A program made the position numbers and the translations under genes. DNA of 16,245 bases from Lachnospiraceae bacterium (GTDB lineage Bacteria; Bacillota_A; Clostridia; Lachnospirales; Lachnospiraceae), in NCBI GenBank assembly GCA_017437705.1, contig JAFRYJ010000129.1:1-16245 (forward strand), given 5' to 3'. Positions within the stretch are counted from its first letter, which is position 1. The number at the start of each line of letters is the position of its first letter. The notes below the pieces were generated by a model. The model saw only the letters and a program-made list of their open reading frames with translations, ran no database searches and had not been told where the DNA came from. This document shows positions 3,159 through 16,245 of the stretch, piece by piece.

Positions 3159-3223
3159 AATTTAACTGATTTTTGTTAAAAATGACTATATATTTTTTAT
3201 AAGGAAGATATTCGGAACGCACC

Positions 3224-4066
3224 CTACCGTCTTACACCGTCGATCCGCTCTTTTCTCTCCCTGCCCTCTCTTAAAAGCTCCCGGAGCCTGTCGGCATCAC
3301 TGTCCCGGAGGGCGTCCCTGTATTCGGTAAGCGCGTTGATATAATTATCGATCTCGTACAGCAGGTTATCCCTGTTGTCGAGGAACAGGTCGGCCCACAT
3401 GGTCTCGTTCAGGTAGGCTACCCTCGTCATGTCCTTGTAGCTGCCGGCCGAGATGCCCTGTATGTGGTCCGCCGTAGGGCTCTTTATATACGCCGATGAT
3501 GCCACATGGGCCAGCTGCGACGTAAAGGCCACCACCCTGTCATGCTCCGCCGCATCGGCAAACACGAACCTTCCGAAGCCGGGAGGGGAGAGCATCTCCT
3601 TGATGTGCTGCATCTGTACGATATCGTTCCTGTCCTTTATGACTACCACCATGGGAGCTCCCACGAACATGCCGGCACTGCTGTATTTGAAACCGCTCAT
3701 GTGGGTCCCGGCCATGGGATGGCCGCCGGCGAAGGTGAAGCCGTATTCACCGGCAAGCTCGAAGCCGGTCTTGCAGATGGCGCTTTTGGTGCCTCCGCAG
3801 TCCGTAACCAGGGTATCTTTTCTTATAAAGGGAGCGATCTCCCTCAGATATTCGCGGGAGTCCGTGGGGTAGAGGGCGATGATGATAAGATCGCACTCCC
3901 CGATATCCTCTTTTTTAAGCTCGCCGTCTGCAACGCCCGAAAGCACCGCGTAATCCAGCGTTGTCCTGTCACTGTCGAAAATAAGCACCCTGTGGCCCGC
4001 CGCCTTGTAAGCCCTGGCCATGGATCCTCCTATAAGGCCTGCTCCCGCAATTCCAACTGTCATCAT
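3224..4066 (-). CDS. tyrA: Prephenate dehydrogenase
   Basis: Oxidative decarboxylation of prephenate to 4-hydroxyphenylpyruvate in tyrosine synthesis, with NAD(P)+. The 280-residue product has the N-terminal Rossmann motif GAGLIGGS (8-15), VTDCGGTKSAI (87-97), the catalytic-histidine motif GGHPMAGT (114-121, His116), TSQLAHV (182-188) and the SAGSYKDMTRVA segment (206-217) of the helical dimerisation domain. It stops after that domain, with no C-terminal ACT domain, so feedback control would have to occur elsewhere. Two adjacent ATGs are possible starts, after AAGGAG. It follows aroF by 29 nt, so the two are probably one transcript under the tyrosine-codon attenuator. Cyclohexadienyl dehydrogenase activity on arogenate cannot be excluded. 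Confidence 0.95.
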   Translation of the reverse strand: MMTVGIAGAGLIGGSMARAYKAAGHRVLIFDSDRTTLDYAVLSGVADGELKKEDIGECDLIIIALYPTDSREYLREIAPFIRKDTLVTDCGGTKSAICKTGFELAGEYGFTFAGGHPMAGTHMSGFKYSSAGMFVGAPMVVVIKDRNDIVQMQHIKEMLSPPGFGRFVFADAAEHDRVVAFTSQLAHVASSAYIKSPTADHIQGISAGSYKDMTRVAYLNETMWADLFLDNRDNLLYEIDNYINALTEYRDALRDSDADRLRELLREGRERKERIDGVRR

Positions 4067-4095
4067 GATACGCTCCTTGTATTTTACAGAATCGC

Positions 4096-5100: not shown

Positions 5101-5130
5101 TTCAAAACCTCCGGTCTCCCGCAAAATGAA

Positions 5131-5156
5131 GCCCGCGCGATCTGTATCGCACGGGC
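5131..5156 (-). terminator. Attenuator terminator of the aroF-tyrA leader
   Basis: In the minus-strand RNA GCCCGUGCGAU pairs over 11 bp with AUCGCGCGGGC, with one U-G wobble and a 4-nt loop, followed by UUCAUUUU. It lies between the leader peptide and the aroF ribosome binding site. The wobble would be a C-A mismatch on the other strand, which supports this orientation. The upstream element 5193-5204 can pair either with the Tyr codons (5218-5229) or, through CACGG/CCGUG, with this terminator's 5' arm. Confidence 0.75.
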
Positions 5157-5212
5157 CTGAATGGTCTTACCCTTTGATTCTCCGCAACACAAATCACCGT
5201 GATCCCTGTTCT

Positions 5213-5263
5213 TTAAAGATTACGGTAATAATAGTATGCAGCTGCGGAAAATGATCTTTTCAT
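5213..5263 (-). CDS. Tyr-rich attenuation leader peptide of aroF-tyrA
   Basis: A 16-codon ORF encodes MKRSFSAAAYYYYRNL and stops at TAA. AAAGGAG sits 6-7 nt before the ATG, and the start lies about 20 nt downstream of the predicted transcription start. Four consecutive Tyr codons (TAC TAT TAT TAC, 5225-5236), with a Phe codon earlier, are the hallmark of ribosome-mediated attenuation. The downstream genes make DAHP and 4-hydroxyphenylpyruvate, the path to tyrosine. Stalling at the Tyr codons would free 5193-5204 to pair with the terminator's 5' arm and let transcription continue. The peptide itself probably has no function beyond being translated. Confidence 0.88.
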   Translation of the reverse strand: MKRSFSAAAYYYYRNL

Positions 5264-5290
5264 ATCTTACTCCTTTAACAGTACGTAAAA

Positions 5291-5319
5291 ACTTTAATAC
5301 CGGGAAAGGGTTTTGTCAA
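5291..5319 (-). promoter_or_regulatory. aroF-tyrA promoter
   Basis: The minus strand has a perfect TTGACA (-35, 5314-5319), a 17-bp spacer and TAAAGT (-10, 5291-5296). The predicted start near 5284 puts the Tyr leader peptide immediately downstream. I see no clear terminator between the nitroreductase stop (5347) and this promoter, so some read-through from upstream is possible. Confidence 0.75.
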
Positions 5320-5346
5320 CTGCGTTCTTGTTCTGCGGTTTCGTTA

Positions 5347-5877
5347 TCAGTAGATATGATAAACATAATCCGGCTTCCTGGCTGCTGCCGGCCTGATGCC
5401 GTTTTCTTCGGGATATCCCAGGATCATAAAGCCCACGCCGGTGTAGTCACCTTCAATGCCCAGGTCGGCAAGTATCTTTTTGCCCTCGTCGGTCGAGAAG
5501 ATCTCCCTTGCCCTGTGGATCCAGCATGAACCCAGTCCCAGGGATGATGCGGCGAGCATCATGTTTCCCAGAACGAGGCTGCCGTCGTTGATGCCTGTAA
5601 AAGCGGCACTGTTGGCGAGCACGGCGATTACCATCGGTGCTCCGTAGAAGGGATCGGTGCCCTCCGGTGCTCCGAGCACCTGAGCATTCATTTTTGACAG
5701 GGCATCCCTTACTCCCTTATTCGTGACCGCGATGATAACGGGAGACTGCTTTCCCATACCCGTTGCCGCATATGTTCCGGCTTCGCAGACCGCGTTTACA
5801 AGCTCCGCGGGAACGGCATCGGGCTTATAGGCCCTGCAGCTCCTTCTTTCCTTTATGGCCTTGATGATATCGTTCAT
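5347..5877 (-). CDS. Nitroreductase-family FMN-dependent oxidoreductase
   Basis: Small flavoprotein of the nitroreductase superfamily, normally a homodimer that uses NAD(P)H and FMN; the physiological substrate cannot be read from sequence. The 176-residue product has the family's opening KERRSCRAYKPDAVP (9-23) with the FMN-phosphate-contacting Arg/Ser residues. It continues with TYAATGMGKQSPVIIAV (35-51), NDGSLVLGNMMLAASSLGLG with the CWIHRA segment (97-123), and VGFMILGYPEE (148-158). The start was set at the ATG 8 nt after GGAGGT; a longer in-frame start 15 codons upstream would overlap the promoter. It has its own sigma-A-type promoter and no evident link to aroF-tyrA. Confidence 0.9.
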   Translation of the reverse strand: MNDIIKAIKERRSCRAYKPDAVPAELVNAVCEAGTYAATGMGKQSPVIIAVTNKGVRDALSKMNAQVLGAPEGTDPFYGAPMVIAVLANSAAFTGINDGSLVLGNMMLAASSLGLGSCWIHRAREIFSTDEGKKILADLGIEGDYTGVGFMILGYPEENGIRPAAARKPDYVYHIY

Positions 5878-5913
5878 TTCAAATACCTCCGTCTCTTCAG
5901 TGATGTGTGGCAT

Positions 5914-5942
5914 ATTATACACAACGCTTCAAAAAACTTCAA
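5914..5942 (-). promoter_or_regulatory. Nitroreductase promoter abutting the upstream terminator
   Basis: The minus strand reads TTGAAG (-35, 5937-5942), a 17-bp spacer containing the T-run of the upstream terminator, and TATAAT (-10, 5914-5919). The -35 begins directly after the terminator stem. Confidence 0.65.
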
Positions 5943-5966
5943 GGCCGGCAGATATCTCTGCCGGCC
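5943..5966 (-). terminator. Terminator retained from the broken dehydrogenase copy
   Basis: A perfect 10-bp stem GGCCGGCAGA/TCTGCCGGCC with a 4-nt loop is followed on the minus strand by TTGAAGTTTTTTG. It lies 40 nt after the stop of the gldA-like remnant and would have ended that gene's transcript. Confidence 0.75.
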
Positions 5967-6006
5967 CTGTTTAAGTTCCTCAGTTCTTTATACTGATGTC
6001 CGCATA

Positions 6007-6192
6007 TTATCTTGCGATCTCTTCCTTCATTCTCTTTCCGTAAGCATCTGCTGCTACCATTGCATTGAAAAGATCCTGTCCGGTCACAACGAATGCCCGG
6101 TTGTCCGTGAATGATCCGCCGCTGGTGTATTTCTCGCACCATGCCATGAGACGCTCTTTTGAAACATCCTGGAGGTTCAGATCCTCGAAGCA
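6007..6192 (-). pseudogene. C-terminal remnant of a second GldA-family dehydrogenase
   Basis: The minus strand encodes 61 residues and a stop, from CFEDLNLQDVSKERLMAWCE to AYGKRMKEEIAR. This matches the last 59 residues of the intact dehydrogenase immediately upstream (from Cys309), with clear but incomplete identity: for example LFNAMVAADAYGKRMKEE here against LYNAMIAADAYGRRMKEE. Homology stops abruptly at the Cys codon, next to a terminator hairpin, and no start codon or ribosome binding site is present. It is best read as the 3' end of a tandem paralogue that lost about 300 codons. The divergence shows that the duplication is not recent. Its own terminator survives at 5943-5966. Confidence 0.88.
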
Positions 6193-6198
6193 AAATAA

Positions 6199-6234
6199 AA
6201 AAGTGGATGAGAGATCGCTCTCTCATCCACTTTT
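6199..6234 (-). terminator. Terminator of the GldA-family dehydrogenase gene
   Basis: A perfect 16-bp stem (6199-6214 with 6219-6234) closes on the 4-nt loop TCGC. On the minus strand it is followed by a T-run (TTTTTTATTTT). It lies 43 nt after the gene's stop and separates it from the broken copy. Confidence 0.85.
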
Positions 6235-6277
6235 ATTAAACTGCACTTTTTAACAGAAACCTTTGCCCTGCTTTTAA

Positions 6278-7381
6278 TTATGCAAGCTCTTCCTTCATCC
6301 TTCTTCCGTATGCATCAGCTGCGATCATTGCATTGTAGAGATCTTCCTTGGTAACTACGAATGCGTGGTTTGCCGTGAAGGAGCCCTGAGTATGAACATC
6401 GCACCATGCCATGATACGCTCTTTTGAAACATCCTGCATGTTGAGGTCTTCGAAGCAAACGGGAAGGCCTACTCTTACAAGGAAGCTTACGATATCATAT
6501 TTCTCATCGGTCGTGATGTTGGGATCCAGCATAAGCTCGGTAACGATACCGAAGGATACCTTGTCGCCGTGCATATATTCGTGGGTCTCGGGGAATTCGG
6601 GAAGTCCGTTGCCGAGAACGTGGGCGGTACAAAGTCCGCCGCTCTCCCAGCCTACGCCTGAAAGAAGAACGTTGGCCTCAACTACCTTCTCAAAAGCAGC
6701 TGTGGTAACGCCTGCCTCTGCAGAGATGATAGCATCCTCTGCATTGTCCATGATAAGATCGAAGCAGAGCTGAGCCATTGCCTTAACTGTCTCTGTAGGT
6801 GTGCCCCATGCACATGTCGGATTGTCCGCCCTGCATGATGCCATTGCTTCGATGTTCGTTGCAAGAGCATCGCCGATGCCGGCCTTGAACATATGAATGG
6901 GAGCTGCTGCCATAACTTCCGTATCGGCAAGAACGATGTCGGGATTGTAAGGCCACATATCGAAGCCTACGCATACATGGTCGTCATCATACCAAACGGT
7001 ACATGCCGATGTAGGTGCATCGTTTGATGCGATCGTAGGCGCGCTTATCATCTTAAGGCCGCAGGCGATGGCTACTGATTTAGCCATGTCAAGAGCCTTG
7101 CCGCCGCCGATACCGATAACAAGGTCACAGCCTTTTTCCTTAACTTCCGCGATTATGGCCTCGCTTGTTGCATGGGTACAGTCTGTAATGAACAGATGCT
7201 CCTCAAAGGGCATACCCTTAGCTTCAAAGCCTGCCGTTACCTTATCAACTGTAGCATATTTTGCTTTTCTGCCCCAAACGATCATGGGCTTTGTTGCGCC
7301 CAGTTTTTCTGCATAATCAGCTACCAGTCCGATAGCTCCGGGTCCCTGATAATACTTGCCGGGGAAAACAATAGCTTTCAT
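6278..7381 (-). CDS. gldA: Glycerol dehydrogenase-family polyol dehydrogenase
   Basis: Metal-dependent NAD+-linked dehydrogenase of the iron-containing alcohol dehydrogenase superfamily; family members oxidise glycerol and related polyols or diols to ketoses. The 367-residue product has the NAD-binding GIGGGKALDMAK (90-101), SAPTIASNDAPTSA (113-126) and the metal ligands in the usual places: Asp171 (GIGDALAT), His254 (CTAHVLGNG) and His271 (ETHEYMHG). The start ATG follows AAGGAGG. It carries a variant of the cluster's GntR-type operator upstream and a strong terminator downstream, so it is probably a single-gene unit of the sugar regulon. Glycerol is only the family's default substrate; with a pentose/tetrose enzyme set nearby, a longer polyol or ketose is equally likely. 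Confidence 0.88.
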   Translation of the reverse strand: MKAIVFPGKYYQGPGAIGLVADYAEKLGATKPMIVWGRKAKYATVDKVTAGFEAKGMPFEEHLFITDCTHATSEAIIAEVKEKGCDLVIGIGGGKALDMAKSVAIACGLKMISAPTIASNDAPTSACTVWYDDDHVCVGFDMWPYNPDIVLADTEVMAAAPIHMFKAGIGDALATNIEAMASCRADNPTCAWGTPTETVKAMAQLCFDLIMDNAEDAIISAEAGVTTAAFEKVVEANVLLSGVGWESGGLCTAHVLGNGLPEFPETHEYMHGDKVSFGIVTELMLDPNITTDEKYDIVSFLVRVGLPVCFEDLNMQDVSKERIMAWCDVHTQGSFTANHAFVVTKEDLYNAMIAADAYGRRMKEELA

Positions 7382-7433
7382 AAAAAAAATACCTCCTTAA
7401 AGCATAAAGTATAATACTCATAGTATTAATACG

Positions 7434-7462
7434 TTAATATATGTATATACATCGTACCGCAA
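7434..7462 (-). promoter_or_regulatory. Possible gldA promoter with operator in the spacer
   Basis: The best fit on the minus strand is TTGCGG (7457-7462), a 17-bp spacer and TATTAA (7434-7439). The perfect 12-bp palindrome ATGTATATACAT (7441-7452) lies within the spacer and keeps the GTATATAC core of the cluster operator. It matches 12 of 16 positions of the best copy. The promoter elements are weak and other arrangements are possible. From 7463 to 7597 I see only A/T-rich sequence and TGCA-containing repeats, with no gene. Confidence 0.5.
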
Positions 7463-7597
7463 AGCAGCAAAAGTTTCCATAAAAGTCAAATAATTAACAT
7501 AAAAAGTACAATCCATGCCTCTCTGCACATTTATGCAGACATTTGTGCATGTTTTCCGCAATCTTTAGCATTTACCCAAAAATGCACATTAAAAGAG

Positions 7598-7631
7598 AAC
7601 GGCCGCCGTACCAAAAGATACGGCGGCCGTT
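7598..7631 (-). terminator. Terminator of the transaldolase-like gene
   Basis: A perfect 13-bp GC-rich stem (7598-7610 with 7619-7631) and an 8-nt loop are followed by CTCTTTTAATG on the minus strand. It lies 82 nt after the stop codon of the gene ending at 7714. Confidence 0.75.
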
Positions 7632-7713
7632 CACACCCCTTACATTTCCAGTTTGAACATAATACCTTCTTAACAGCAACTGCACGGAAGATCCGGCAGA
7701 TACTGTGCTTTAA

Positions 7714-9018
7714 TTATTTCTGCCCGTTTGCAGCGTTCATGAATCTTCTCTGATATGAAACTACCTGGTTTGCGCTTGTGAATCTTGCAAGGTAGTTGGG
7801 CTCAGCCGTAAGAACGACTCTGCCGGACATATCTCTGAATTCATCCGATGCAAGCAGTCTGTCGATATCGTAATAGTTGTGGTCGCCTTCCATCGAGCAG
7901 ATGATGAGCCTTGTATCGGGAAGGTTAGCCTCGCGGAGGACTCTCAGGTTGTGACGTACGCCGTCGAGACCGTCGCTGCCCTCTTCATCGTAGAAGTGTC
8001 TCTGATCGAGGAGGACCTCTGCCTTATTGAGCACCTTCATGATGTCGATATCCTTGTCGGTTGCGCAGAAGTAATCCTTCTCGAGCATGAAATCTCTCAG
8101 CTCTTCGAGATACTTGCTGTCCTCTGTCTCATAGTAGCGGTCTACCTTCTCTGCGATCTTCTCGGTCTGCATGAATTTATGCCTGATGAAGCTATTGATG
8201 AAGTAAGGCCTTGCCTGAAGAGCAAGCTGTGTCTGAGGCTCTTCGAACATGAGCGTGAAGTTTACCCTGAAGCCGTGCTCATGGAGCATGAGAGCAAGGT
8301 TGTGGCCTCTGAAGGCATCGAGCGTAGCTACATCATCATATCTCTTATCGAGCTTCTTGTCGCCGGAGAGCAGCTGCTTAACATTATCCTTGTTAACAGG
8401 GCCGGTATGAGGAACCTTGATAACTACTCTGTAATCGGTGAGCATCTCCTTGAAATGTTCTGCCTCTTCGAGGATCTCTGTATCGGATTTGCCGAAGGGA
8501 TCGTTAAGCTCTACGGAGATATCGCAGCCGGGGCCAAGGATCCTGCCGATCTCGCCCATTACCTCGTCTCTGGTATTGAACTTGTGATCGATATTGGCCT
8601 TGGGATTATTGATGAACAGGTCGTAGATGATACCGGGGTTGCAGGTGAGGTTTGCAAGGAAAGGAGCTACGGGAGCAACCTCGTAGGGGTTTGCGCTGTC
8701 GGCCGAGAACAGAAGGTTCGTAGGCCTCTTCTTGCCGTTCCTGTCGAATGCGATGTTTCTCTTGAGGTCCACCTTGATGCACTTGCCTGCATAGAGCTCG
8801 ATAACGGGCTCGAAGCCTGCGGGGATCTCGCCTGCGGGAGTCTTGAAAGTATCGATAACTCTCTTGAACTCGTCCGTAACGCCGATATACTCTGCATCTG
8901 CTGAAAGACGCTTGAACTCCTTTGCGGAAAGCTCAAGGTCAAGGACTCTGTTTACGAATTCCTCATCGCCTGCTGCGGGCGTGAGGCCGAGATTTCTGAT
9001 TTTTGATATAATCTGCAT
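7714..9018 (-). CDS. Transaldolase-superfamily protein, large divergent form
   Basis: Probable Schiff-base aldolase or transaldolase transferring a three-carbon ketol unit; the substrate is unknown. The 434-residue protein is longer than classical transaldolases (about 310-320) and fructose-6-phosphate aldolases (about 215-220). Landmarks in order are LTCNPGII (124-131, matching the family's TTNPSLI), DISVELNDP (166-174), VVIKVPHTGP (198-207) with Lys201 as likely Schiff-base lysine, and NFTLMFEEPQTQLALQA (253-269), the counterpart of NLTLLFS...QA. The first 110 residues and the C-terminal 150 are extensions I cannot assign. GGGGAGG precedes the ATG. It has its own promoter with the shared operator at the start of transcription, which places it in the GntR regulon. 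Assignment to the superfamily is good; the activity is inferred. Confidence 0.75.
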   Translation of the reverse strand: MQIISKIRNLGLTPAAGDEEFVNRVLDLELSAKEFKRLSADAEYIGVTDEFKRVIDTFKTPAGEIPAGFEPVIELYAGKCIKVDLKRNIAFDRNGKKRPTNLLFSADSANPYEVAPVAPFLANLTCNPGIIYDLFINNPKANIDHKFNTRDEVMGEIGRILGPGCDISVELNDPFGKSDTEILEEAEHFKEMLTDYRVVIKVPHTGPVNKDNVKQLLSGDKKLDKRYDDVATLDAFRGHNLALMLHEHGFRVNFTLMFEEPQTQLALQARPYFINSFIRHKFMQTEKIAEKVDRYYETEDSKYLEELRDFMLEKDYFCATDKDIDIMKVLNKAEVLLDQRHFYDEEGSDGLDGVRHNLRVLREANLPDTRLIICSMEGDHNYYDIDRLLASDEFRDMSGRVVLTAEPNYLARFTSANQVVSYQRRFMNAANGQK

Positions 9019-9041
9019 ATTTTCCTCCCCATGTCGTTTAT

Positions 9042-9057
9042 ACTTGTATATACATGT
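9042..9057. promoter_or_regulatory. GntR/HutC-type operator before the transaldolase-like gene
   Basis: ACTTGTATATACATGT is an imperfect 16-bp palindrome with a perfect TGTATATACA core. It lies exactly at the predicted transcription start (near 9058), a position where a bound repressor would block initiation. It has the GT-n-TA-n-AC spacing typical of HutC-subfamily sites. Confidence 0.7.
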
Positions 9058-9064
9058 CTATAAA

Positions 9065-9093
9065 AAGATAACTCTCCGCCGCAATATTGTCAA
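9065..9093 (-). promoter_or_regulatory. Promoter of the transaldolase-like gene
   Basis: The minus strand has a perfect TTGACA (-35, 9088-9093), a 17-bp spacer and TATCTT (-10, 9065-9070). The -35 lies in the loop of the upstream kinase terminator and the spacer holds its 3' stem. The operator follows at +1. Confidence 0.65.
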
Positions 9094-9112
9094 CAAATAT
9101 TTTGGCGGAGAG
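9072..9112 (-). terminator. Terminator of the FGGY kinase gene, overlapping a promoter
   Basis: CTCTCCGCC (9072-9080) pairs with GGCGGAGAG (9104-9112). An inner AATATT/AATATT stem lies at 9083-9088 and 9096-9101. The minus-strand tail is TTATCTTTTTA, so the T-run is interrupted; the plus-strand tail has a better T-run, but no plus-strand gene needs it. Confidence 0.6.
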
Positions 9113-9149
9113 CTGTTTTTTTAAAAATAATACATTTTGAGAGCGGATC

Positions 9150-10697
9150 TTATCTTATCTCTTCAAGCTTTTTGAATACATCCTCGCTCTTGAGTCCGTA
9201 ATATGCAGCCTTGTAAGCCTCGAAGCATTTCCTGTAAACTTCAACGTTCTCGGGGATGGGCTCGATGATGTCGCCGAACTCAACCATGTTGGCAACGCCG
9301 TCCTTCGTATCCTTGTACTCGCCCAGTGCGATGGCAGCCATGATGCCTGCGCCGATGATGGCTGTATCGGCTGTCTTCAGCGTCCTGATCTTCCTGTTCA
9401 TCACGTCGGCGATGATCTGCAGCCACTCGGGGCTCTTTGCAACGCCGCCGGCAACCGTAAGGATCTCGCTCATCTCTACGCCTGCGCCCTCGATGCCCTG
9501 CAGAACGTGGCGTGCCTCAAGGGTGATGCCCTCCATAACGGCACGTACCATATCGGCCTTAGTCGTAGTCGAACGGAGCCCCAGGAACATGCCCGTTGCA
9601 TATGTATCCCAGGTCGGGAATCCGGATCCGAACAGAGCCGAATAGAAGATAACGCCGTTTGAACCGGGAACGGAATTCTTGATATACTTGTCGCCCATAA
9701 GAACGTAAGGATCAACGCCTTCCTCTTCCGCTGCCTTGATGTCCTCCTCGCACATAACGTCACGGCACCATCTGTAACAGGTAGCGCCTGAGACCTGAGC
9801 GCCCTCTACCTCGAATACCTCGGGATTGGGAGTGGGAGGAACCATCATGCCGCCGAGAGCCTTGAAATCGGGATTTGAAGAACCAACGATGATGTTGCCG
9901 TAGGTACCGATGATAAGACATACATCACCGTCCGTAACAACGCCGCCGCCCATGGCTGAAAGCTGCTGGTCGCCGGAGCCCGCAACGATCTTTGTGCCGA
10001 CTGCAAGGCCTGTGGCAGCTGCCGTCTTCTCGTTAACGCCGCCTACGATATCGCCGGACATAACGAGCTTCGGGAAGATCTTCCTGTCGAAGCCGCAGGC
10101 ATCGATGAGATCCCAGCACCAGTCGTGGCATCTTACATCGCAGAGGCCGGTAACAACGCCGTTCGTATACTCGTCAACGAACTCATCCGCGCCGAACTCA
10201 TACATGATAAATCCCATTACCGTGGCGATATATTTTATCTTTGCATAGGTCTCGGGCTCTTTCTTCATTATCCAGTAAAGCTTGTCCAGCTCGTAGATAT
10301 TTGCTCCGGGAAGGCCGGTGATCGTATTTCTCGTCTCGGGATCCATCTTGGAGTTGAGCTCCTCCATGATCTCCTCAGCACGGGAATCAAGCCAGATATA
10401 GAATTTGTCGTCTATTACATTCATGTCCTCATCATAGAGGCAGAATGTGGAACGCTGAACTGAGAAGCTGACAGCCTCGATCTCCGTATTGGGAACGCCG
10501 GATTTGTCGATAGCATCCTTAACAGCCTCGTTCGTTACGTCCAGAAGGAACTTTGCTCCCTTCTCAACCCAGTTCTTGTTGGGATAATCCAGGGTATATT
10601 CCCTGTAGCCCTGGCCGTAGATCTTGCCCTTAAGATCCATTACCATTGCTTTTGAACCGGTGGTTCCTACATCAACACCAAGTACATATTTACCCAT
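9150..10697 (-). CDS. FGGY-family carbohydrate kinase (xylulokinase-like)
   Basis: ATP-dependent kinase that phosphorylates a ketose, aldose or polyol; the FGGY family includes xylulokinase, ribulokinase, glycerol kinase, erythritol kinase and apulose kinase. The 515-residue product has both actin-like domains. The phosphate-1 loop is GVDVGTTGSKA (7-17) and IWLDSRA lies at 101-107. AGSGDQQLSA (239-248) holds the likely catalytic base Asp243, and the C-terminal adenosine motif is GGVAKSPEWLQ (417-427). The start follows only a weak AGGA site. It lies 133 nt downstream of the aldolase gene, beyond an intrinsic terminator, and I see no convincing promoter or operator of its own, so it may depend on read-through. 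Substrate specificity cannot be decided from sequence. Confidence 0.9.
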   Translation of the reverse strand: MGKYVLGVDVGTTGSKAMVMDLKGKIYGQGYREYTLDYPNKNWVEKGAKFLLDVTNEAVKDAIDKSGVPNTEIEAVSFSVQRSTFCLYDEDMNVIDDKFYIWLDSRAEEIMEELNSKMDPETRNTITGLPGANIYELDKLYWIMKKEPETYAKIKYIATVMGFIMYEFGADEFVDEYTNGVVTGLCDVRCHDWCWDLIDACGFDRKIFPKLVMSGDIVGGVNEKTAAATGLAVGTKIVAGSGDQQLSAMGGGVVTDGDVCLIIGTYGNIIVGSSNPDFKALGGMMVPPTPNPEVFEVEGAQVSGATCYRWCRDVMCEEDIKAAEEEGVDPYVLMGDKYIKNSVPGSNGVIFYSALFGSGFPTWDTYATGMFLGLRSTTTKADMVRAVMEGITLEARHVLQGIEGAGVEMSEILTVAGGVAKSPEWLQIIADVMNRKIRTLKTADTAIIGAGIMAAIALGEYKDTKDGVANMVEFGDIIEPIPENVEVYRKCFEAYKAAYYGLKSEDVFKKLEEIR

Positions 10698-10776
10698 ATT
10701 AATGTCCTGTGCCTTTCCGCCGCCGATGCGGCAATTCTTCGCTATTGTTTGATAACTATAAATTCGTATCTCAAAA

Positions 10777-10803
10777 ACAGGGCGGATATAAACTCCGCCC
10801 TGT
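10777..10803 (-). terminator. Terminator between the aldolase and kinase genes
   Basis: A perfect 10-bp stem ACAGGGCGGA/TCCGCCCTGT with a 7-nt loop is followed on the minus strand by TTTTGAG. The T-run is short, so partial read-through into the kinase gene is plausible. A second small hairpin GCCGC-ATCG-GCGGC lies near 10719-10732, in the kinase leader. Confidence 0.7.
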
Positions 10804-10830
10804 TCCTGAATCCAGTATTAATCTGCTTAA

Positions 10831-11562
10831 TTATTCCTCATATTTGGGGAACAGGCCGATCTCTCTCATCATATCAAGGTGATCGATGATCTCAGGGGCA
10901 GCTCGTGTACCGATAAGGTCAGCGCCTGCCATGATGAATGCGAAAGCATTCTGAGGACGAGGGAACTTAACACCGGCAACCTTGGTTCCGCAGCCTGAAC
11001 CTGCAACGGCGTTCTTCATGATGAGGAACTGATCCATTGTAGGGCCGCCGAACTGACCTGATGAGGTCTTAACATATCCGATGCCTGCTTCTGCAACGAG
11101 CTCTGATGCCAGCTTGATCTCATCGTCGGTGAGGAAGTCAAGCTCGATGATGCACTTCGAAAGGATGGGCCTTCCTGCGCTCTTGATGGGATCGATAACA
11201 GCCTTGAGCTCGCACTTAACATCATCGATAAGTCCGGAACGAAGAGCACCGATATTCATAACCATATCGATGGACTCTGCTCCGAGCTCGATAGCTTCCT
11301 TGGTGGCAAACTCTTTGAGTTTCCATGAACCTGTACCGAAAGGAAAATCAAAGGTGGTAGCGGCTAAAACTCCAGACCCCGCAAGGAGTTCCGTTGTAAG
11401 CGGAAGCCAGTAGTTCGTTGAGGGATAGAATGCTGCGCAGTTATACTCGATAGCTTCCTTACATCCCTTTTCGATATCGGTCTTTGTCGAATTCTTGGGC
11501 AATACCGAATAATCGAAGAACTTACCAAAATCTTTTTTTGTCATTTTGGAAAAGTCTTTCAT
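10831..11562 (-). CDS. DeoC/LacD-family aldolase (deoxyribose-phosphate aldolase-like)
   Basis: Class I aldolase of the deoxyribose-phosphate aldolase family; DeoC itself cleaves 2-deoxyribose 5-phosphate to glyceraldehyde 3-phosphate and acetaldehyde. The 243-residue protein has the Schiff-base lysine motif YVKTSSGQFGG (163-173, Lys165), the second lysine Lys199 in AGVKFP, and the Asp in ESIDMVMNIGAL (Asp99). However, the usual phosphate-binding SGGIR segment after the second lysine reads KFPRPQN. The GTSS segment reads GTRAA (218-222), and the C-terminal tyrosine tail is absent. The aldol chemistry is therefore probably kept while the substrate, or its phosphate position, differs. AGGAGG precedes the ATG. 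It has its own promoter and the shared operator. No nucleoside phosphorylase or phosphopentomutase is nearby, which also argues against deoxyribose use. Confidence 0.85.
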   Translation of the reverse strand: MKDFSKMTKKDFGKFFDYSVLPKNSTKTDIEKGCKEAIEYNCAAFYPSTNYWLPLTTELLAGSGVLAATTFDFPFGTGSWKLKEFATKEAIELGAESIDMVMNIGALRSGLIDDVKCELKAVIDPIKSAGRPILSKCIIELDFLTDDEIKLASELVAEAGIGYVKTSSGQFGGPTMDQFLIMKNAVAGSGCGTKVAGVKFPRPQNAFAFIMAGADLIGTRAAPEIIDHLDMMREIGLFPKYEE

Positions 11563-11610
11563 GTACTTTTTTCCTCCTTCTTATATTTAGATCGTTGATC
11601 CTACATACTT

Positions 11611-11626
11611 ACATGTACATACAACT
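11611..11626. promoter_or_regulatory. GntR/HutC-type operator before the DeoC-like gene
   Basis: On the minus strand this reads AGTTGTATGTACATGT, matching 14 of 16 positions of the site before the transaldolase-like gene. It lies just downstream of the predicted transcription start (near 11629). Confidence 0.7.
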
Positions 11627-11635
11627 TCACTTTAA

Positions 11636-11663
11636 ACTATATACCCTGCATTGATGATGTCAA
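11636..11663 (-). promoter_or_regulatory. Promoter of the DeoC-like gene
   Basis: The minus strand has TTGACA (-35, 11658-11663), a 16-bp spacer and TATAGT (-10, 11636-11641), with the operator just after +1. The -35 begins a few bases after the T-run of the gntR terminator. Confidence 0.7.
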
Positions 11664-11666
11664 CAC

Positions 11667-11720
11667 AAAAAATCGCCGCGAACACCGCCTTGCACAAATG
11701 TCTGCAAAGATGTTCACGGC
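11667..11720 (-). terminator. Terminator of the gntR gene
   Basis: In minus-strand RNA GCCGUGAACA pairs with UGUUCGCGGC (11711-11720 with 11675-11684, one U-G wobble). An inner TTGCA/TGCAA stem follows, and then GATTTTTTG. It lies 33 nt after the gntR stop codon. The loop contains a 16-mer shared with the region upstream of gldA. Confidence 0.75.
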
Positions 11721-11752
11721 AAAATTACAGAAAAATCAAGCATTGCGGGCTT

Positions 11753-12478
11753 TTACATTTCAAAATGCATTTTTATCTGCATCTTGTCTCCTCTGAATAC
11801 GACGGAGCTCCATTCAAAGGCCTTTCCGGACCTGTCTGCTATTACGTCCCTCAGCCTGATGAGGGGATAGCCCTTTCTGATGTTCAGCAGCTCGGCTTCA
11901 TCATCCCTGGCGGATACGGATTCTATCATCTCCGTAACGCTGGCCCTGTTCAGCCCGTAGTCGTCGCTGAGGATCCTGCAAAGCTGCTCGTTGCAGAAAT
12001 CGCTCTTCTCCAGCCCGTCGGCGTATGCCACGGGAATGTACGAATCGTGGATCGAGAGGGGAACGTCCTTTATCTTGCGCAGTCTTTTTATGTGATAGAC
12101 TTCTTCACCGTCCTTCAGCCCCATAGTGGCGGCTATCGCCGGCGGACATGCTGTCTTTTCCACAGAAAGCACGATGGTCGAAACATCGTATCCCTGGGAC
12201 TCCAGCTGCTCCCTTACGCCCACATAAGACCCGGTGTTGGCTTCGATCTTGGGCTCCGCAACGTATGTGCCCTTGCCCTGTACCCTGTACAGCTTTCCGT
12301 CTCTTACAAGCTCCGTAAGCACGGAACGGAGCGTGACCCTGCTGATGCCGAATTCACTGCACAGCTGGCTCTCCGACGGTATCTTGTCGTTTACTTTGTA
12401 TTCTCCCGATTCAAGCCTGGCAGACAATATGTCCCTTACCTGAATATACAGAGGAGTCGAATTTGTTCTCTCAAGCAT
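11753..12478 (-). CDS. GntR-family (HutC subfamily) transcriptional regulator
   Basis: Sugar-responsive transcription factor, probably a repressor. The 241-residue protein has an N-terminal winged helix (residues 1-75: PLYIQVRDILSARLESGEY, then PSESQLCSEFGISRVTLR and GKGTYVAEP) and a C-terminal UTRA effector-binding domain (about 95-237) ending WSSVVFRGDKMQIKMHFEM. UTRA domains usually bind phosphorylated sugars or related small molecules. A purine-rich GAAGGGGG site lies 5-10 nt before the ATG. The gene is divergent from the isomerase-transketolase operon, with one operator in the shared promoter region. Further copies lie before the aldolase, transaldolase-like and dehydrogenase genes, so it probably controls the whole cluster and itself. 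The effector is unknown; an intermediate made by the kinase is a fair guess. Confidence 0.92.
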   Translation of the reverse strand: MLERTNSTPLYIQVRDILSARLESGEYKVNDKIPSESQLCSEFGISRVTLRSVLTELVRDGKLYRVQGKGTYVAEPKIEANTGSYVGVREQLESQGYDVSTIVLSVEKTACPPAIAATMGLKDGEEVYHIKRLRKIKDVPLSIHDSYIPVAYADGLEKSDFCNEQLCRILSDDYGLNRASVTEMIESVSARDDEAELLNIRKGYPLIRLRDVIADRSGKAFEWSSVVFRGDKMQIKMHFEM

Positions 12479-12523
12479 TTTCCGGCCCCCTTCAAAGCGA
12501 TTGGCTTTTGTTCTTTAAAAACA

Positions 12524-12539
12524 ACTTGTATTTACATGT
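12524..12539. promoter_or_regulatory. Operator shared by gntR and the isomerase-transketolase operon
   Basis: ACTTGTATTTACATGT matches the site before the transaldolase-like gene at 15 of 16 positions. It overlaps the -35 of the rightward promoter and the predicted start of the leftward gntR transcript, so one bound dimer could repress both. Confidence 0.75.
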
Positions 12540-12559
12540 ATTATAGTTTAAATTATAAT
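12531..12559 (+). promoter_or_regulatory. Promoter of the isomerase-transketolase operon
   Basis: TTTACA (-35, 12531-12536), a 17-bp spacer and a perfect TATAAT (-10, 12554-12559); predicted start near 12566. The ribosome binding site AGAAAGGTGG lies just before the ATG at 12613. Confidence 0.7.
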
Positions 12560-12567
12560 TGTGTCAA
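12540..12567 (-). promoter_or_regulatory. gntR promoter
   Basis: The minus strand has TTGACA (-35, 12562-12567), a 16-bp spacer and TATAAT (-10, 12540-12545). It overlaps the divergent operon promoter almost completely. The predicted start (near 12533) falls inside the operator, which implies autoregulation. Confidence 0.7.
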
Positions 12568-12612
12568 GTTATTAGAGAAAGATAATTACATAAGAAAGGT
12601 GGTATTTGGTAT

Positions 12613-13053
12613 ATGAAAATAGCAGTTGGTTGCGACCCCAACGCAACAGATTACAAAATGGCTATCATCCCCGTTGTTGAGGCTCTCGGCCATGAGGTAA
12701 CGGATTTCGGCAGCGACGATCCCATATATGCCAACGTGGCATTCAAGGTCGGCGAGGCAGTTGCGGCAGGAGAATATGACAGGGGGCTCCTCTTCTGCGG
12801 CACCGGCATCGGCGTATGCATCGCGGCAAACAAGGTAAAGGGCGTATATGCAGCATGTGTAAACGACATTTATCAGGCACAGCGCGCCGCGCTCAGCAAC
12901 AACGCCAACATCATTACGATGGGCGCACAGGTAGTAGGTATCGAACGTGCAAAGTGCTACGTTAAAGAATATCTCGGCCTTACATTCGACCCCAACTCCC
13001 GCTCTGCCGCAAAGGTACAGAGGATCACGGATTACGAAGAGAAGGGTGAATAA
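12613..13053 (+). CDS. RpiB/LacA/LacB-family sugar isomerase
   Basis: Aldose-ketose isomerase of the ribose-5-phosphate isomerase B family. The 146-residue protein keeps the catalytic cysteine motif FCGTGIG (61-67, Cys62), the following IAANKVKGVYAA (70-81), Asp8 and the NNANIITMGAQVVG strand. It lacks several residues typical of RpiB: the DHAG motif reads DPNA (8-11), and the histidine of the HNDAN motif is Ser95 in SNNAN. Only one of the usual pair of C-terminal basic phosphate ligands seems to be present, in NSRSAAKVQRI. It may therefore act on something other than ribose 5-phosphate; C4 sugar phosphates and other analogues are used by known paralogues. It is the first gene of an operon with the split transketolase, with a 2-nt gap. 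Confidence 0.87.
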   Translation: MKIAVGCDPNATDYKMAIIPVVEALGHEVTDFGSDDPIYANVAFKVGEAVAAGEYDRGLLFCGTGIGVCIAANKVKGVYAACVNDIYQAQRAALSNNANIITMGAQVVGIERAKCYVKEYLGLTFDPNSRSAAKVQRITDYEEKGE

Positions 13054-13055
13054 TA

Positions 13056-13907
13056 ATGACAGAAAAAGAAATTGCCAGACTCAAACTTGAGGCCGCAAAG
13101 TGCAGGCTCAACGTTCTTCGTATGATAAGAGCCGGGCATCACGGCCACGTGGGCGGAGCGCTTTCCGCCATGGATATAGTAACGGCGCTGTACTTCTATA
13201 AAATGAAGGTGGATCCTTCGGATCCCCAGATGAAGGACAGGGACAGGTTCATACTCTCGGCGGGCCACAAATGCCTCTGCCAGTATGCCGCCCTTGCTGA
13301 AAAGGGCTTCTTCTCAAAGACTGTCCTCGACACCTACGGATCCCTGGGAAGCCACATCCCCGGCCATCCGGACATGCACAAGCTCCCCGGCGTTGAGGCA
13401 AATACCGGCGCTCTCGGTCACGGACTTGCCATATCACTGGGCATGGCTCTCGGCGCAAAGCTTTCCGGCACGGGCGCAAAGGTTTACACCGTAATGGGCG
13501 ACGGCGAGCTGGCTGAAGGCTCCAACTGGGAAGCCGCTGCGGCAGCTGCCCATCACAAGGCAGACAATCTCACGGCCATCGTGGATTTCAACGGTCTGCA
13601 GATAAGCGGCCGTGTTCAGGAGGTAATGGACTTCACTCCCATCTCCGAGCATTTCAAAGCCTTCGGCTGGGCCGTAAGAGACATAGACGGCAACAACATG
13701 GAAGAGATCGTGGATGCACTGGACAGCCTTCCTTTCGAGGAGGGAAAGCCTTCCTGCATCGTTGCACACACCATCAAGGCAAAGGGTCTTTCCTTCGGCG
13801 AGGACAACGTTTCCTTCCATTTCTGGAATGCAAAGGAAGAACAGCTTGACCAGGCCGAGGCAGAAATGACCGCACTTATAGAAGAATTAAGGAAGGAGGC
13901 AGAATAA
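13056..13907 (+). CDS. Transketolase, N-terminal (ThDP pyrophosphate-binding) subunit
   Basis: One half of a split transketolase, which moves two-carbon ketol units between sugars using thiamine diphosphate. The 283-residue subunit has the ThDP/Mg motif GDGELAEGSNWEA (148-160) ending at VDFNG (176-180), SHIPGHPD (99-106) and TGALGHGL (117-124). The substrate-channel segment, usually AGSGHPGGSLS, reads AGHHGHVGGALS (26-37), which is one residue longer, and the usual SKGH reads SAGHKC (68-73). These differences suggest a specialised subfamily rather than the housekeeping enzyme. The gene sits between the isomerase (2-nt gap) and the C-terminal subunit (1-nt overlap), so the two subunits should be made in equal amounts. 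The phosphorylated donor and acceptor cannot be read from sequence; apulose-4-phosphate transketolases are also split. Confidence 0.9.
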   Translation: MTEKEIARLKLEAAKCRLNVLRMIRAGHHGHVGGALSAMDIVTALYFYKMKVDPSDPQMKDRDRFILSAGHKCLCQYAALAEKGFFSKTVLDTYGSLGSHIPGHPDMHKLPGVEANTGALGHGLAISLGMALGAKLSGTGAKVYTVMGDGELAEGSNWEAAAAAAHHKADNLTAIVDFNGLQISGRVQEVMDFTPISEHFKAFGWAVRDIDGNNMEEIVDALDSLPFEEGKPSCIVAHTIKAKGLSFGEDNVSFHFWNAKEEQLDQAEAEMTALIEELRKEAE

Positions 13908-14842
13908 TGATCGGCAATAAAGAAGATCCCAGAAAAGTATTCGGCAAGACCATATCCGACTATGGCATCGAGCACGAAGATGTAGTCCTACTTTCCGCAG
14001 ACAGCGGCAAGAGCTCGGGATTCGGCGATTTCATGGCAGCCTGTCCCGACCGCTATTTTGAATGCGGCATCATGGAGCAGTGCGTAACGGGTATCGCGGC
14101 AGGTCTGGCCTGCGCAGGCAAGATCCCCGTATTCTGCGCCATCGCCCCCTTCGTTACCGCAAGAAACTTTGAGATGTTCAGGAACGACTGCGGCTACATG
14201 CAGCAGAACGTGAAGATCGTCGGCAGGAACGGCGGCATCACTTATTCGGACCTGGGCGCCACCCATCATTCGCTTGACGATTTCGCCATCATCAGGATGA
14301 TCCCCGGCGTTACCATCCTCTGCCCTCAGGATCCCAACGAGATCCGCTCCGCCACAAAGGCGATGATGGAGCACAAGGGCCCCGTATACATGAGGATAGG
14401 GAACGCGGCCATCGAGAACCTCTTCGAAGAAGAGCCCTTCGAGATAGGAAAGGGACGCAAGATCGCTGACGGCAAGGATGTAACGATCATCGCCACCGGC
14501 ACCGAGACCGGCCAGGTCATGAAGGCCCTTCCCCTTCTCAAGGAAAAGGATATCTCCGCCGATGTTATCGGCCTTCCCACGATCTATCCTCTGGACAAGG
14601 AGCTCATCCTCGAGTCCGTTGAAAAGACCGGCAGGGTCGTAACCGTGGAGGAGCATTATGTTACCGGCGGCCTGGGCGGATCCGTTGCAGAGCTTCTCTG
14701 CGAAGAATGCCCCGCTATCCTCAAAAAGATCGGCGTGCCTCACTGGTATGCAACATCCGGTCCCTATGATGAGATCCTTCATCAGTACGGGCTTGATGCC
14801 GAGGGCATCGCAAAGACAGTTGCGGAGTTTACAGGCAGGTAA
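13907..14842 (+). CDS. Transketolase, C-terminal (pyrimidine-binding) subunit
   Basis: Second half of the split transketolase. The 311-residue protein has the pyrimidine-binding domain with ADSGKSSG (31-38) and the catalytic glutamate motif ECGIMEQ (52-58, Glu57), which activates the thiamine ring. GGITYSDLGATHHSLDD follows around residues 104-120, and the C-terminal domain with VTVEEHYVTGGLGGSVAE at about 245-262 completes the protein. The start codon overlaps the stop of the N-terminal subunit (TAATG). It is the last gene of the operon and is followed by an intrinsic terminator. 1-deoxy-xylulose-5-phosphate synthase and pyruvate dehydrogenase beta share parts of this fold, but the partner subunit and the motif pattern fit transketolase. 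Confidence 0.92.
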   Translation: MIGNKEDPRKVFGKTISDYGIEHEDVVLLSADSGKSSGFGDFMAACPDRYFECGIMEQCVTGIAAGLACAGKIPVFCAIAPFVTARNFEMFRNDCGYMQQNVKIVGRNGGITYSDLGATHHSLDDFAIIRMIPGVTILCPQDPNEIRSATKAMMEHKGPVYMRIGNAAIENLFEEEPFEIGKGRKIADGKDVTIIATGTETGQVMKALPLLKEKDISADVIGLPTIYPLDKELILESVEKTGRVVTVEEHYVTGGLGGSVAELLCEECPAILKKIGVPHWYATSGPYDEILHQYGLDAEGIAKTVAEFTGR

Positions 14843-14859
14843 CTTAAGTCTTTATCATC

Positions 14860-14891
14860 GGGGTGCGCGGCTTAAGCGCACCCCTGTTCTT
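14860..14891 (+). terminator. Terminator of the isomerase-transketolase operon
   Basis: GGGGTGCGC (14860-14868) pairs with GCGCACCCC (14876-14884) over 9 bp with a 7-nt loop, followed by TGTTCTTT. It starts 18 nt after the operon's last stop codon. Confidence 0.8.
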
Positions 14892-14909
14892 TAGCATAAA
14901 GGAGCACCT

Positions 14910-15779
14910 ATGTGGACAGCAGACAAATGGACGGATTACAGGGTCCTTAAAACGGGAAACGGCGAAAAGCTGGAGAAATGGGGAAGGTACCGGCTGCTCC
15001 GGCCCGACCCCCAGGTCATCTGGCCCGCTGCCGGCAAGACCCCTCTCTCAAAGGGAGTAAACGCCCATTATCACAGAAGCGACAAGGGCGGCGGAGAATG
15101 GGAATTCTTCGATCTCCCCGAGAAATGGACGATAGGCTACGAGAGCCTGGGTCTCACCTTCAATCTGAAGCCCTTCAGCTTCAAGCACACCGGCCTCTTT
15201 CCCGAGCAGTCGGTGAACTGGGAGTGGTTCTACCGGATCATTAAGGAGTCCGGGCGGAAGGAGCCCCGGGTCCTTAATCTCTTTGCCTATACCGGCGGCG
15301 CAACTATTGCTGCAGCGAAGGCCGGAGCTTTCGTTACCCACGTCGACGCTTCGAAGGGCGTCGTGGCCTGGGCAAAGGAGAATGCGGTATCATCGGGCAT
15401 ACCAGGCGACCGCATCCGGTGGCTCACCGACGACTGCATAAAATTCGTCGAGCGGGAGCTGAGGCGGGGCAACATGTACGACGGCATCATAATGGACCCG
15501 CCCTCCTACGGCAGAGGCCCCAAGGGCGAGTTGTGGCGCATGGAGGATGATATCTACGGCCTCATATCTCTGTGCTCGGACCTTCTGTCGGAAGACCCGC
15601 TGTTCTTCCTTGTGAATTCCTACACAACGGGCCTGCAGCCTGCGGTGCTCTCCTACATGCTGTCGACAGCCGTGGCATCAAAGCACGGCGGCAGAGTGAC
15701 GGCGGACGAGGTGGGGCTTCCCATAGATGAGAACGGCCTGATACTTCCCTGCGGTGCTGCGGGAAGGGTCGAGTTTTAA
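14910..15779 (+). CDS. RlmI-like class I SAM-dependent methyltransferase
   Basis: Probable RNA (23S rRNA cytosine-C5-type) methyltransferase of the RlmI/RlmK-like group; the target is inferred from the family. The 289-residue protein has an N-terminal region ending LFPEQSVNWEWF (96-107), which places the substrate side. SAM motif I is VLNLFAYTGGAT (121-132), followed by the acidic HVDASKG (144-150) and the catalytic-loop motif MDPPSYGRGP (195-204). Full-length RlmI proteins carry an N-terminal PUA domain and are near 400 residues; here that domain is missing, as in many short homologues. AAAGGAG lies 6 nt before the ATG. It follows the terminator of the sugar operon and has no evident functional link to it. 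Confidence 0.85.
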   Translation: MWTADKWTDYRVLKTGNGEKLEKWGRYRLLRPDPQVIWPAAGKTPLSKGVNAHYHRSDKGGGEWEFFDLPEKWTIGYESLGLTFNLKPFSFKHTGLFPEQSVNWEWFYRIIKESGRKEPRVLNLFAYTGGATIAAAKAGAFVTHVDASKGVVAWAKENAVSSGIPGDRIRWLTDDCIKFVERELRRGNMYDGIIMDPPSYGRGPKGELWRMEDDIYGLISLCSDLLSEDPLFFLVNSYTTGLQPAVLSYMLSTAVASKHGGRVTADEVGLPIDENGLILPCGAAGRVEF

Positions 15780-15827
15780 GCCGTCTTTATGCATTTGCTG
15801 AATAATTGAAACGAAAGGAAAGCTGAC

Positions 15828-16223
15828 ATGAGCAAAATTAATGATCTTCTTACTGAAGCAGGCGTGTTCTATCTTGCCACCTGCGACGGCGACCAGCCGA
15901 AGGTACGCCCCCTGGGCGCACATTTTGAATTCGACGAAAGGCTGATGTTCGGCGTCGGCGATTTCAAAAATGTATACCGCCAGCTTCTGGCAAACCCCAA
16001 AACAGAGATCGTGGCCCTGAAGGCCGACGGCCACTGGCTGCGCTACACCGGAACGGCCGTTTTTGAGACTGATCCCAAATACGCCGAAATGGCCCTCGAC
16101 GCCATGCCGGACCTCAGGGCTATCTACAACGAAGAGACCGGCCACAAGATGATGATGTTCCATCTGGAGGACGCCACCGCCGTGGATATCAACCTGATGG
16201 GCCCGGGCGAAAGCCTGCTGTAA
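15828..16223 (+). CDS. Pyridoxamine 5'-phosphate oxidase-family (FMN split-barrel) protein
   Basis: Small flavin-binding split beta-barrel protein. The 131-residue product begins with a short helix, then GVFYLATCDGDQPKVRPLGA (residues 12-31), the family's first strands, with the PKVRPL contact to FMN. GVGDFKNVYRQLLANPKTEI (42-61) and the ending FHLEDATAVDINLMGP complete the fold. Members reduce or bind flavin, F420 or haem and many are uncharacterised; true PNPOx is about 200 residues or more, so vitamin B6 synthesis is unlikely. A GAAAGGAAAG ribosome binding site precedes the ATG. It lies 48 nt after the methyltransferase gene and may share its transcript. Confidence 0.88.
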   Translation: MSKINDLLTEAGVFYLATCDGDQPKVRPLGAHFEFDERLMFGVGDFKNVYRQLLANPKTEIVALKADGHWLRYTGTAVFETDPKYAEMALDAMPDLRAIYNEETGHKMMMFHLEDATAVDINLMGPGESLL

Positions 16224-16245
16224 GCTTTTCCGGCAGCACAGCATA

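Follow-up and report, generated by a model that had tools for sequence, protein, structure and literature searches.

What compound does a bacterium break down with genes that resemble those of the pentose phosphate pathway and are grouped around a single regulator, and do these genes act together? The question is raised by a 16,245-bp stretch of a Lachnospiraceae bacterium genome (GenBank assembly GCA_017437705.1, contig JAFRYJ010000129.1, positions 1 to 16,245, forward strand), hereafter the window. Eight open reading frames within positions 6278-14842 all match named families (open reading frame list, Pfam and NCBIfam). They are gldA, a transaldolase-like (TAL-like) gene, an FGGY kinase gene, deoC and gntR on the minus strand, followed by rpiB, tktN and tktC, the last two encoding a split transketolase, on the plus strand. 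A preliminary description had placed such genes around one GntR/HutC regulator; all eight, the regulator included, are present with their families matched, and the end it gave to the locus, 14884, is that of a terminator-like hairpin 3' of tktC (14860-14884, plus strand) found in a hairpin scan. The TAL-like, RpiB, transketolase and GntR genes and their companions look like one regulon, which is well supported by the footprint of a shared operator-like site. With moderate confidence we propose that GntR represses a dedicated set of catabolic genes acting on a ketose, or on a polyol or aldose first turned into a ketose, and that the enzymes do not bind the far end of this ketose as they would a usual terminal phosphate.

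A shared operator-like site

Comparing the intergenic regions with each other revealed a common palindrome, TGTATNTACA. It gave six strand hits, equal to four sites, in the 16,245 bp against 0.07 expected, and none of 200 shuffles reached six. All four sites are intergenic. The form TGTATATACA lies upstream of gldA (7442..7451), just upstream of a promoter-like -35 hexamer, and again upstream of the TAL-like gene (9045..9054), just downstream of a promoter-like -10 hexamer. The site upstream of deoC, TGTATGTACA (11614..11623), is downstream of a promoter-like -10 hexamer, and TGTATTTACA (12527..12536), between gntR and rpiB, overlaps the -35-like hexamer of rpiB and stands just downstream of the -10-like hexamer of gntR. 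The FGGY gene, 133 bp after deoC, has no TGTATNTACA site directly in front of it. Promoter-like hexamers numbered 17 against 9.7 expected. The placement of the sites relative to these hexamers fits repression and autoregulation, presumably by the GntR/UTRA (HutC-type) regulator (11753..12478, minus strand; PF00392, PF07702), which is predicted to bind them. The earlier proposal of a single regulon thus gains four sites, upstream of gldA, the TAL-like gene, deoC and gntR/rpiB.

The same parts and the same operator-like site recur in relatives. Among 80 related loci kept of 172 found (1,243,009 bases), 52 sites of TGTATNTACA/TGTANATACA were counted, here with no shuffle control. A gene of a recurrent family was found within -40 to 350 bp of 40 of them and of none of the other 12, and some sites fall inside genes. 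The genes behind the sites were TAL-like (14), TktN (7), DeoC (5), class II aldolase (5), RpiB (4), GntR (2), a membrane family that we call perm31 (1) and a few others. Sites at TAL-like genes were seen across Bacillota-group genera, Anaerolineaceae, Synergistaceae, Propionibacteriaceae and Bacteroidales, and a GntR homologue is present in 31 of the 80 loci. In 12 whole genomes, all selected for a site at their locus, TGTATATACA occurred 113 times, against 37 for a reversed control. Greedy calling of open reading frames hides genes under longer antisense frames (the TAL frame in 7 of the 80 loci, TktN and TktC of L222, RpiB of L001), so that every neighbour count is a minimum. Where no family match is given, many names of neighbours were assigned by eye from protein starts: nitroreductase-like in relatives, epimerase-like, E1/E2/E3, butyrate-kinase-type, OYE-type, HAD and DUF1537.

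Core and accessory genes

The closest syntenic match (loci L001/L201) comes from an uncultured Clostridiales metagenome-assembled genome, G001; judging by its relatives, the bacterium probably lives in a gut or rumen. Its flanks, matched by eye, are those of the window: ribosomal genes, prephenate dehydrogenase, DAHP synthase, nitroreductase and methyltransferase. There, a TAL-like-GntR pair is divergent from RpiB-TktN-TktC, with no gldA, FGGY or deoC gene in between. Searches of that genome matched neither FGGY (threshold 1e-80) nor DeoC (threshold 1e-50); an FGGY gene of 29% identity lies ~2 kb beyond tktC. As this relative does without gldA, this kinase and deoC, we consider the TAL-like, RpiB, transketolase and GntR genes to be the core and the rest accessory. 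The eight genes had been described as one joint set, but those for the FGGY kinase, DeoC and the dehydrogenase are separable.

They had also been likened to an almost complete non-oxidative pentose phosphate pathway. The diverged members are indeed there, but the Pfam scan of the window, which covered 14 proteins, detected no epimerase among them, so the locus is not a complete set. The idea that it is the housekeeping pentose phosphate set is weakened by the presence in G001 of a second TktN and a second RpiB.

Conserved catalytic and altered head-group residues

Altered binding motifs, noted earlier for several members, were seen in the TAL-like protein, TktC, RpiB and DeoC. The TAL-like protein (7714..9018, minus strand, 434 aa; TAL_FSA 32.3, cut-off 27) belongs to a diverged branch of PF00923 in which the TIM-barrel transaldolase fold is present. 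It differs from other members of this transaldolase/FSA family, including BmSF-TAL (8c4i), by ~100 extra N-terminal residues, an insertion of ~60 residues and S-x-E in place of S-x-R. The catalytic residues D107, N127, E170, K201, N253 and T255 are kept in all 86 TAL-like homologues and align with those of classical transaldolases; we take their counterparts in TalB to be D17, N35, E96, K132, N154 and T156. The arginine of the phosphate-site S-x-R motif, which we equate with TalB R228, is replaced by Glu377 in 80 of the 86 (the others have Asp in four, Ser in one and Gln in one). In the same column, eight aligned classical transaldolases, some of them the same gene twice, have seven Arg and one Lys. 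For this comparison the C-terminal part was aligned alone, since a mixed full-length alignment left it unaligned.

The branch is large, with 1785 matches within 7995 candidates scored, and identity in the 80 loci is 57-73%. Among the 120 matches listed, 'transaldolase family protein' is as specific as any source name gets, NCBIfam gave no match, and the PDB gave none for the single sequence and a profile match with an E value of 0.04. The check for close homologues with an assigned pathway thus came back empty within these sources.

The settings of TAL-like genes vary. In Bacteroidales they accompany a DHDPS-like gene, a hydroxyacid dehydrogenase and PfkB, and in another setting a class II aldolase, a phosphatase and a Dha kinase. 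In L002 the gene adjoins butyrate-kinase-type genes. It lies between E1/E2-type subunits in L066 and within acetogen operons with E1-E2-E3-type genes in L017, L019 and L080; by eye, all four place it in or next to an operon with genes of E1-alpha, E1-beta and E2 (and E3 and lipoate-ligase) type. At L005:1728-3518 and five further loci, a protein of ~600 aa seems, by eye, to join a class II aldolase to a PHP phosphoesterase. Elsewhere the two are encoded by neighbouring genes, which suggests consecutive steps.

The transketolase is encoded by TktN, the N-terminal, thiamine pyrophosphate subunit (13056..13907, plus strand; PF00456, 161 bits), and TktC, the C-terminal subunit (13907..14842, plus strand; PF02779, PF02780). 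According to PMC11659671, phosphate-type transketolases carry the motif RSFHR and sulfofructose-type enzymes RAFDR. We tabulated three of these five positions (9, 36 and 108) in an alignment of 57 rows, in which overlapping loci contribute some genes more than once and a few rows are dehydrogenase subunits. The window TktC has R9-S36-N108. Of the 28 rows with >=57% identity, this one among them, 27 share R-S-N and the last is cut. At position 108, six classical-type rows carry His; four of these six come from TAL-like loci, and at position 36 four have Ala and two have Ser. Other TAL-like-linked transketolases show R-G-S or R-G-G, mostly in acetogen-group loci, or R-G-C, in three Bacteroidales loci.

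RpiB (12613..13053, plus strand; LacAB_RpiB, PF02502) resembles isomerases of the EryI/DerI-like, tetrulose-phosphate type. Its best NCBIfam model is NF051858, D-erythrulose-4-phosphate isomerase, at 149 bits, below the cut-off of 240. At the sites of its motifs GCDPNA, LSNNAN and SRSAAKV, the two classical paralogues compared show GNDHAA, EHNNAN/EHNNTN and GRHERRV/GRHEKRV. PDB entry 5ifz, presumably a Brucella enzyme that probably acts on a phosphate, has LSNNA and GRSAGNV and is thus partly like the RpiB of the window. Together, motifs and model match point to a C4 substrate type, which need not be unphosphorylated. This type of RpiB is found in 17 of 28 TAL-like genomes at 1e-40. It also occurs in a second recurrent cluster (L205, L206, L208, L212), with a remote FGGY gene, a glycerol-1-phosphate-dehydrogenase-like gene and/or a NagD-type HAD gene (by eye); some of these loci also have a split transketolase and a classical transaldolase.

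DeoC, an accessory class I aldolase (10831..11562, minus strand), passes the cut-off of the deoxyribose-phosphate aldolase model TIGR00126 (133.5, cut-off 117.3) and falls just under that of Pfam DeoC (22.5, cut-off 23.8). It retains the catalytic Lys/Asp/Lys, that is, the Schiff-base lysine and its partners, but differs from that model in its phosphate-site segments, where GGIRT (GG(I/V)RT) has become GVKFPRP and GAS has become GTR, and in the number of paralogues: related clusters hold up to four of changed type, in about three motif groups. Homologues are present in 20 of the 28 genomes at 1e-50. Near DeoC and transketolase genes of L014 (3694-5760), L043 (5981-8021) and L200 (11433-13450) lie pairs of PEP_hydrolase-like proteins, which are possible metabolite sensors; the scanned L014 member is fused to an AraC-type helix-turn-helix.

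GldA (6278..7381, minus strand) is a glycerol dehydrogenase of the iron-containing alcohol dehydrogenase superfamily. It passes the PRK09423 subfamily cut-off (352 bits, cut-off 336), does not reach the equivalog NF047954 (288 < 700) and has glycerol dehydrogenases as best PDB matches (E 7.9e-72). A terminator-like hairpin 3' of the TAL-like gene (7597..7632, minus strand) separates gldA from the gene upstream; the span scanned held 15 such hairpins against 8.0 expected by chance. The accessory FGGY carbohydrate kinase (9150..10697, minus strand; FGGY_N and FGGY_C) has XylB, xylulokinase, as its best NCBIfam model (264 bits, below the cut-off of 380). In 10 of 18 genomes chosen by hand from TAL-like carriers there is a homologue of at least 59% identity, several of them beside DeoC and GldA or an aldo-keto reductase and once beside perm31. 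DhaK/DhaL genes stand beside TAL-like or DeoC genes elsewhere, with DhaL in 7 and DhaK in 4 of the 80 loci. The earlier suggestion of a polyol substrate was a guess, since the substrate of the dehydrogenase may be an aldehyde or dihydroxyacetone left by cleavage and not a polyol that enters before it.

A proposed pathway and its alternatives

Catalytic parts that are kept and phosphate pockets that are changed suggest a specialised pathway for a sugar or sugar alcohol. The preliminary description knew of no pathway that combines all these enzymes, which is not supported in that form: the logic of transketolase, transaldolase and C4 isomerase has been published for sulfoquinovose (PMC11659671, PMC9594981). 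In bifurcated sulfoglycolysis, transketolase and transaldolase cleave the sulfosugar, leaving a small sulfonate that undergoes reduction or oxidation (PMC9594981, PMC11659671). Like the bifurcated sulfo-transketolase/sulfo-transaldolase pathway of Faecalicatena (PMC11659671) and the sulfo-transketolase pathway of Clostridium sp. MSTE9 (PMC9594981), the window has a split transketolase with altered head-group residues, an RpiB-family C4 isomerase, a transaldolase and an iron-containing alcohol dehydrogenase-superfamily reductase. Unlike them, it has R-S-N and not R-A-D in TktC, a distinct transaldolase branch with a head-group Glu, and in addition an FGGY kinase, DeoC and a GntR regulator with TGTATNTACA. 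The earlier interpretation was right in outline and is partly supported, but it missed both this parallel and the division into core and accessory genes.

Could the substrate be sulfoquinovose itself? The Pfam set used to flag the sulfo-transketolase route (PMC11968277) is complete in the window (PF02502, PF00456, PF02779, PF02780, PF00465). Against this stand the transketolase motif and the absence of the sulfoquinovose isomerase SqvD (PF02952) and of SqvB/DUF4867 (PF16161) from the 14 proteins scanned. DUF4867 occurs in just 4 of the 28 TAL-like genomes. One copy, in G019 (Anaerobium acetethylicum, the genome behind L008), sits in a separate sulfo-type cluster, whose transketolase is R-A-D and whose aligned transaldolase has Arg where the TAL-like protein has Glu. 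This bifurcated cluster (L222) comprises RpiB, two PF00923 genes, the transketolase, DUF4867 and, by eye, an ABC-type transporter. Sulfoquinovose degradation failed on these markers, and we regard it as ruled out but for a very slight residual probability.

With the sulfo-specific marks absent where tested, we propose instead a ketose with a different, non-phosphate tail. The split transketolase would remove C2 units from it, and the RpiB/EryI-like enzyme would convert the remaining C4 aldose to a C4 ketose, letting transketolase act again, while the TAL-like enzyme would take off a C3 (dihydroxyacetone) unit. In the accessory branch, the FGGY kinase would phosphorylate the ketose and the DeoC-type aldolase split the product into triose phosphate and a small aldehyde, a parallel route by analogy with the kinase and class II aldolase of sulfo-EMP2 (PMC9594981). 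GldA, or elsewhere an aldo-keto reductase or dihydroxyacetone kinase, would dispose of the small aldehyde or dihydroxyacetone. GntR would bind TGTATNTACA at the four promoters and be released when an intermediate accumulates. The genes, the operator-like sites, the kept catalytic and changed head-group residues and the division into core and accessory parts are read from the sequence; binding and repression, the order and direction of the steps, the effector and the nature of the substrate are inferred. Support for the proposal comes from these sequence features, from the published sulfosugar logic and, for the disposal step, from GldA here and DhaK/DhaL elsewhere. In TalB F178Y, moreover, replacing R181 of the phosphate site with Glu gave better affinity for unphosphorylated D-glyceraldehyde (PMC3962226).

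A number of observations weigh against this proposal. The kinase within the regulon argues for phosphorylated intermediates, and the scan of the window proteins turned up no transporter. The TAL-like protein retains a basic stretch (R279, H280 or Q, R/K281), which leaves room for an anionic tail. F277 and E170, which we take to correspond to TalB F178 and E96, are transaldolase-type and oppose the release of free dihydroxyacetone. The engineered TalB R181 aligns with His280 and not with Glu377. Because Ala also occurs at position 36 of classical-type transketolases (4 of 6 rows), only position 108 discriminates, and because the RpiB changes are partly common to 5ifz, they are no argument for a non-phosphate tail. 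TAL-like genes elsewhere keep company with 2-keto-acid-type aldolases, dehydrogenase-complex subunits and butyrate-kinase-type neighbours, and with such varied settings the reaction is probably broader than one pathway. Finally, TGTATATACA was not in excess of the control in two of the 12 genomes (6 vs 6; 1 vs 1), and in three genomes read around every such site only 4 of 15, 3 of 11 and 4 of 9 were near expected genes, counting as such the regulon families or usual neighbours (OYE-type operon, perm31, DHDPS-like).

One alternative is catabolism of a tetritol or tetrulose (erythritol, threitol, erythrulose) through phosphorylated intermediates. Oxidation of the tetritol by GldA and phosphorylation by the FGGY kinase would be followed by formation of erythrose 4-phosphate by the EryI/DerI-like isomerase, which transketolase and the TAL-like enzyme would pass on to glycolysis. 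Erythritol and threitol pathways employ an EryI/DerI-type RpiB, a DAK-family tetrulose kinase and a TIM-family isomerase. The RpiB of the window is closest to the erythrulose-4-phosphate isomerase model, with motifs resembling 5ifz, a DeoC/GntR locus of a relative (L196) has DhaKLM and a TIM-family gene, and one operator-like site precedes perm31 beside a gene weakly matching D-threonate/3-oxo-tetronate kinases. However, that model's cut-off is missed, no DAK kinase or TIM-type isomerase is among the 14 proteins scanned, and DeoC, the R-to-E change of the TAL-like protein and the H-to-N change of the transketolase are left unexplained. Compared with those pathways, DeoC, the TAL-like protein and the split transketolase are additions. 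In the second cluster type, moreover, this kind of RpiB stands with a classical transaldolase, joined in L206 by an epimerase-like gene, as for pentoses. We consider a tetritol pathway rather unlikely.

Those clusters fit an ordinary pentulose or pentitol (or apulose-like) pathway, with an FGGY pentulokinase followed by RpiB, transketolase and a diverged transaldolase, and with motif changes that are neutral or tune kinetics. The D-apiose/apulose pathway uses an FGGY kinase and a split transketolase; the window shares both and adds RpiB, DeoC, the TAL-like protein and GldA. The kinase's best model, xylulokinase, and the same RpiB type found with classical transaldolase, TktNC and a remote FGGY gene speak for such a pathway. 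In 14 of the 28 TAL-like genomes (many of them metagenome-assembled, completeness not shown) every PF00923 match is TAL-like, so the protein could replace transaldolase. Yet the XylB cut-off is not reached, the second TktN and RpiB of the syntenic relative mean that the module is not its only set, and the conservation of Glu377, with N, S, G or C at position 108 of TAL-like-linked transketolases against His in the six classical-type paralogues, leads us to judge it unlikely. We regard as improbable that the TAL-like protein is an FSA-type aldolase freeing dihydroxyacetone from an unphosphorylated ketose, with reduction to glycerol by GldA or phosphorylation by Dha kinases and the rest a generic feeder. 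The position of gldA as the next gene, the DhaL and DhaK genes of related loci and DhaKLM at L196 would agree with it, but F277 and E170 are transaldolase-type, and a dihydroxyacetone-dependent aldolase was obtained by engineering, as TalB F178Y (PMC3962226).

The open-access literature searched, most subscription papers being outside the search, contains no description of this gene set. In passages of a paper on Eubacteriaceae (PMC12029686), growth on erythritol or adonitol could not be usefully linked to the cluster.

Other features

The perm31 family (L008:5166-6293, L051:12651-13649, L085:3141-3722, L128:1545-2495, L206:3824-4732) adjoins FGGY/DeoC genes, an RpiB/transketolase/epimerase-like set or a tetronate-kinase-like gene. 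An operator-like site lies upstream of it twice (L008, L128). The members scanned, L008 included, and a 199-aa membrane protein of L058 had no Pfam or NCBIfam match; perm31 is a candidate small-polyol or sugar-acid transporter.

The window opens with genes for ribosomal proteins; an S10-Clostridia ribosomal protein leader RNA (2936-3018, minus strand, 86 bits) precedes the S10 operon. A 95-aa open reading frame (5939-6226, minus strand) with no Pfam match adjoins a 16-pair hairpin (6199-6234) and is probably no gene.

Implications

The regulon may, tentatively, represent a second natural case, after sulfoquinovose, of direct transketolase/transaldolase cleavage of a sugar other than a normal sugar phosphate. 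Its head-group-recoded non-oxidative pentose phosphate set, which has a transaldolase branch and an operator to itself and is found in several bacterial phyla, would then serve an abundant but unrecognised sugar or polyol. The TAL-like branch is large, well conserved and carries no more specific name. Since the operator-like site ties it to defined partners across phyla, cultured carriers, among them Anaerobium acetethylicum, Eubacterium callanderi, E. barkeri and Acetobacterium bakii, offer a way to its substrate through the compounds that induce the regulon. If the head-group reading is true, it would add a non-sulfonate member to the strategies of sugar cleavage by transketolase and transaldolase, and would point to residues whose exchange can probe specificity.

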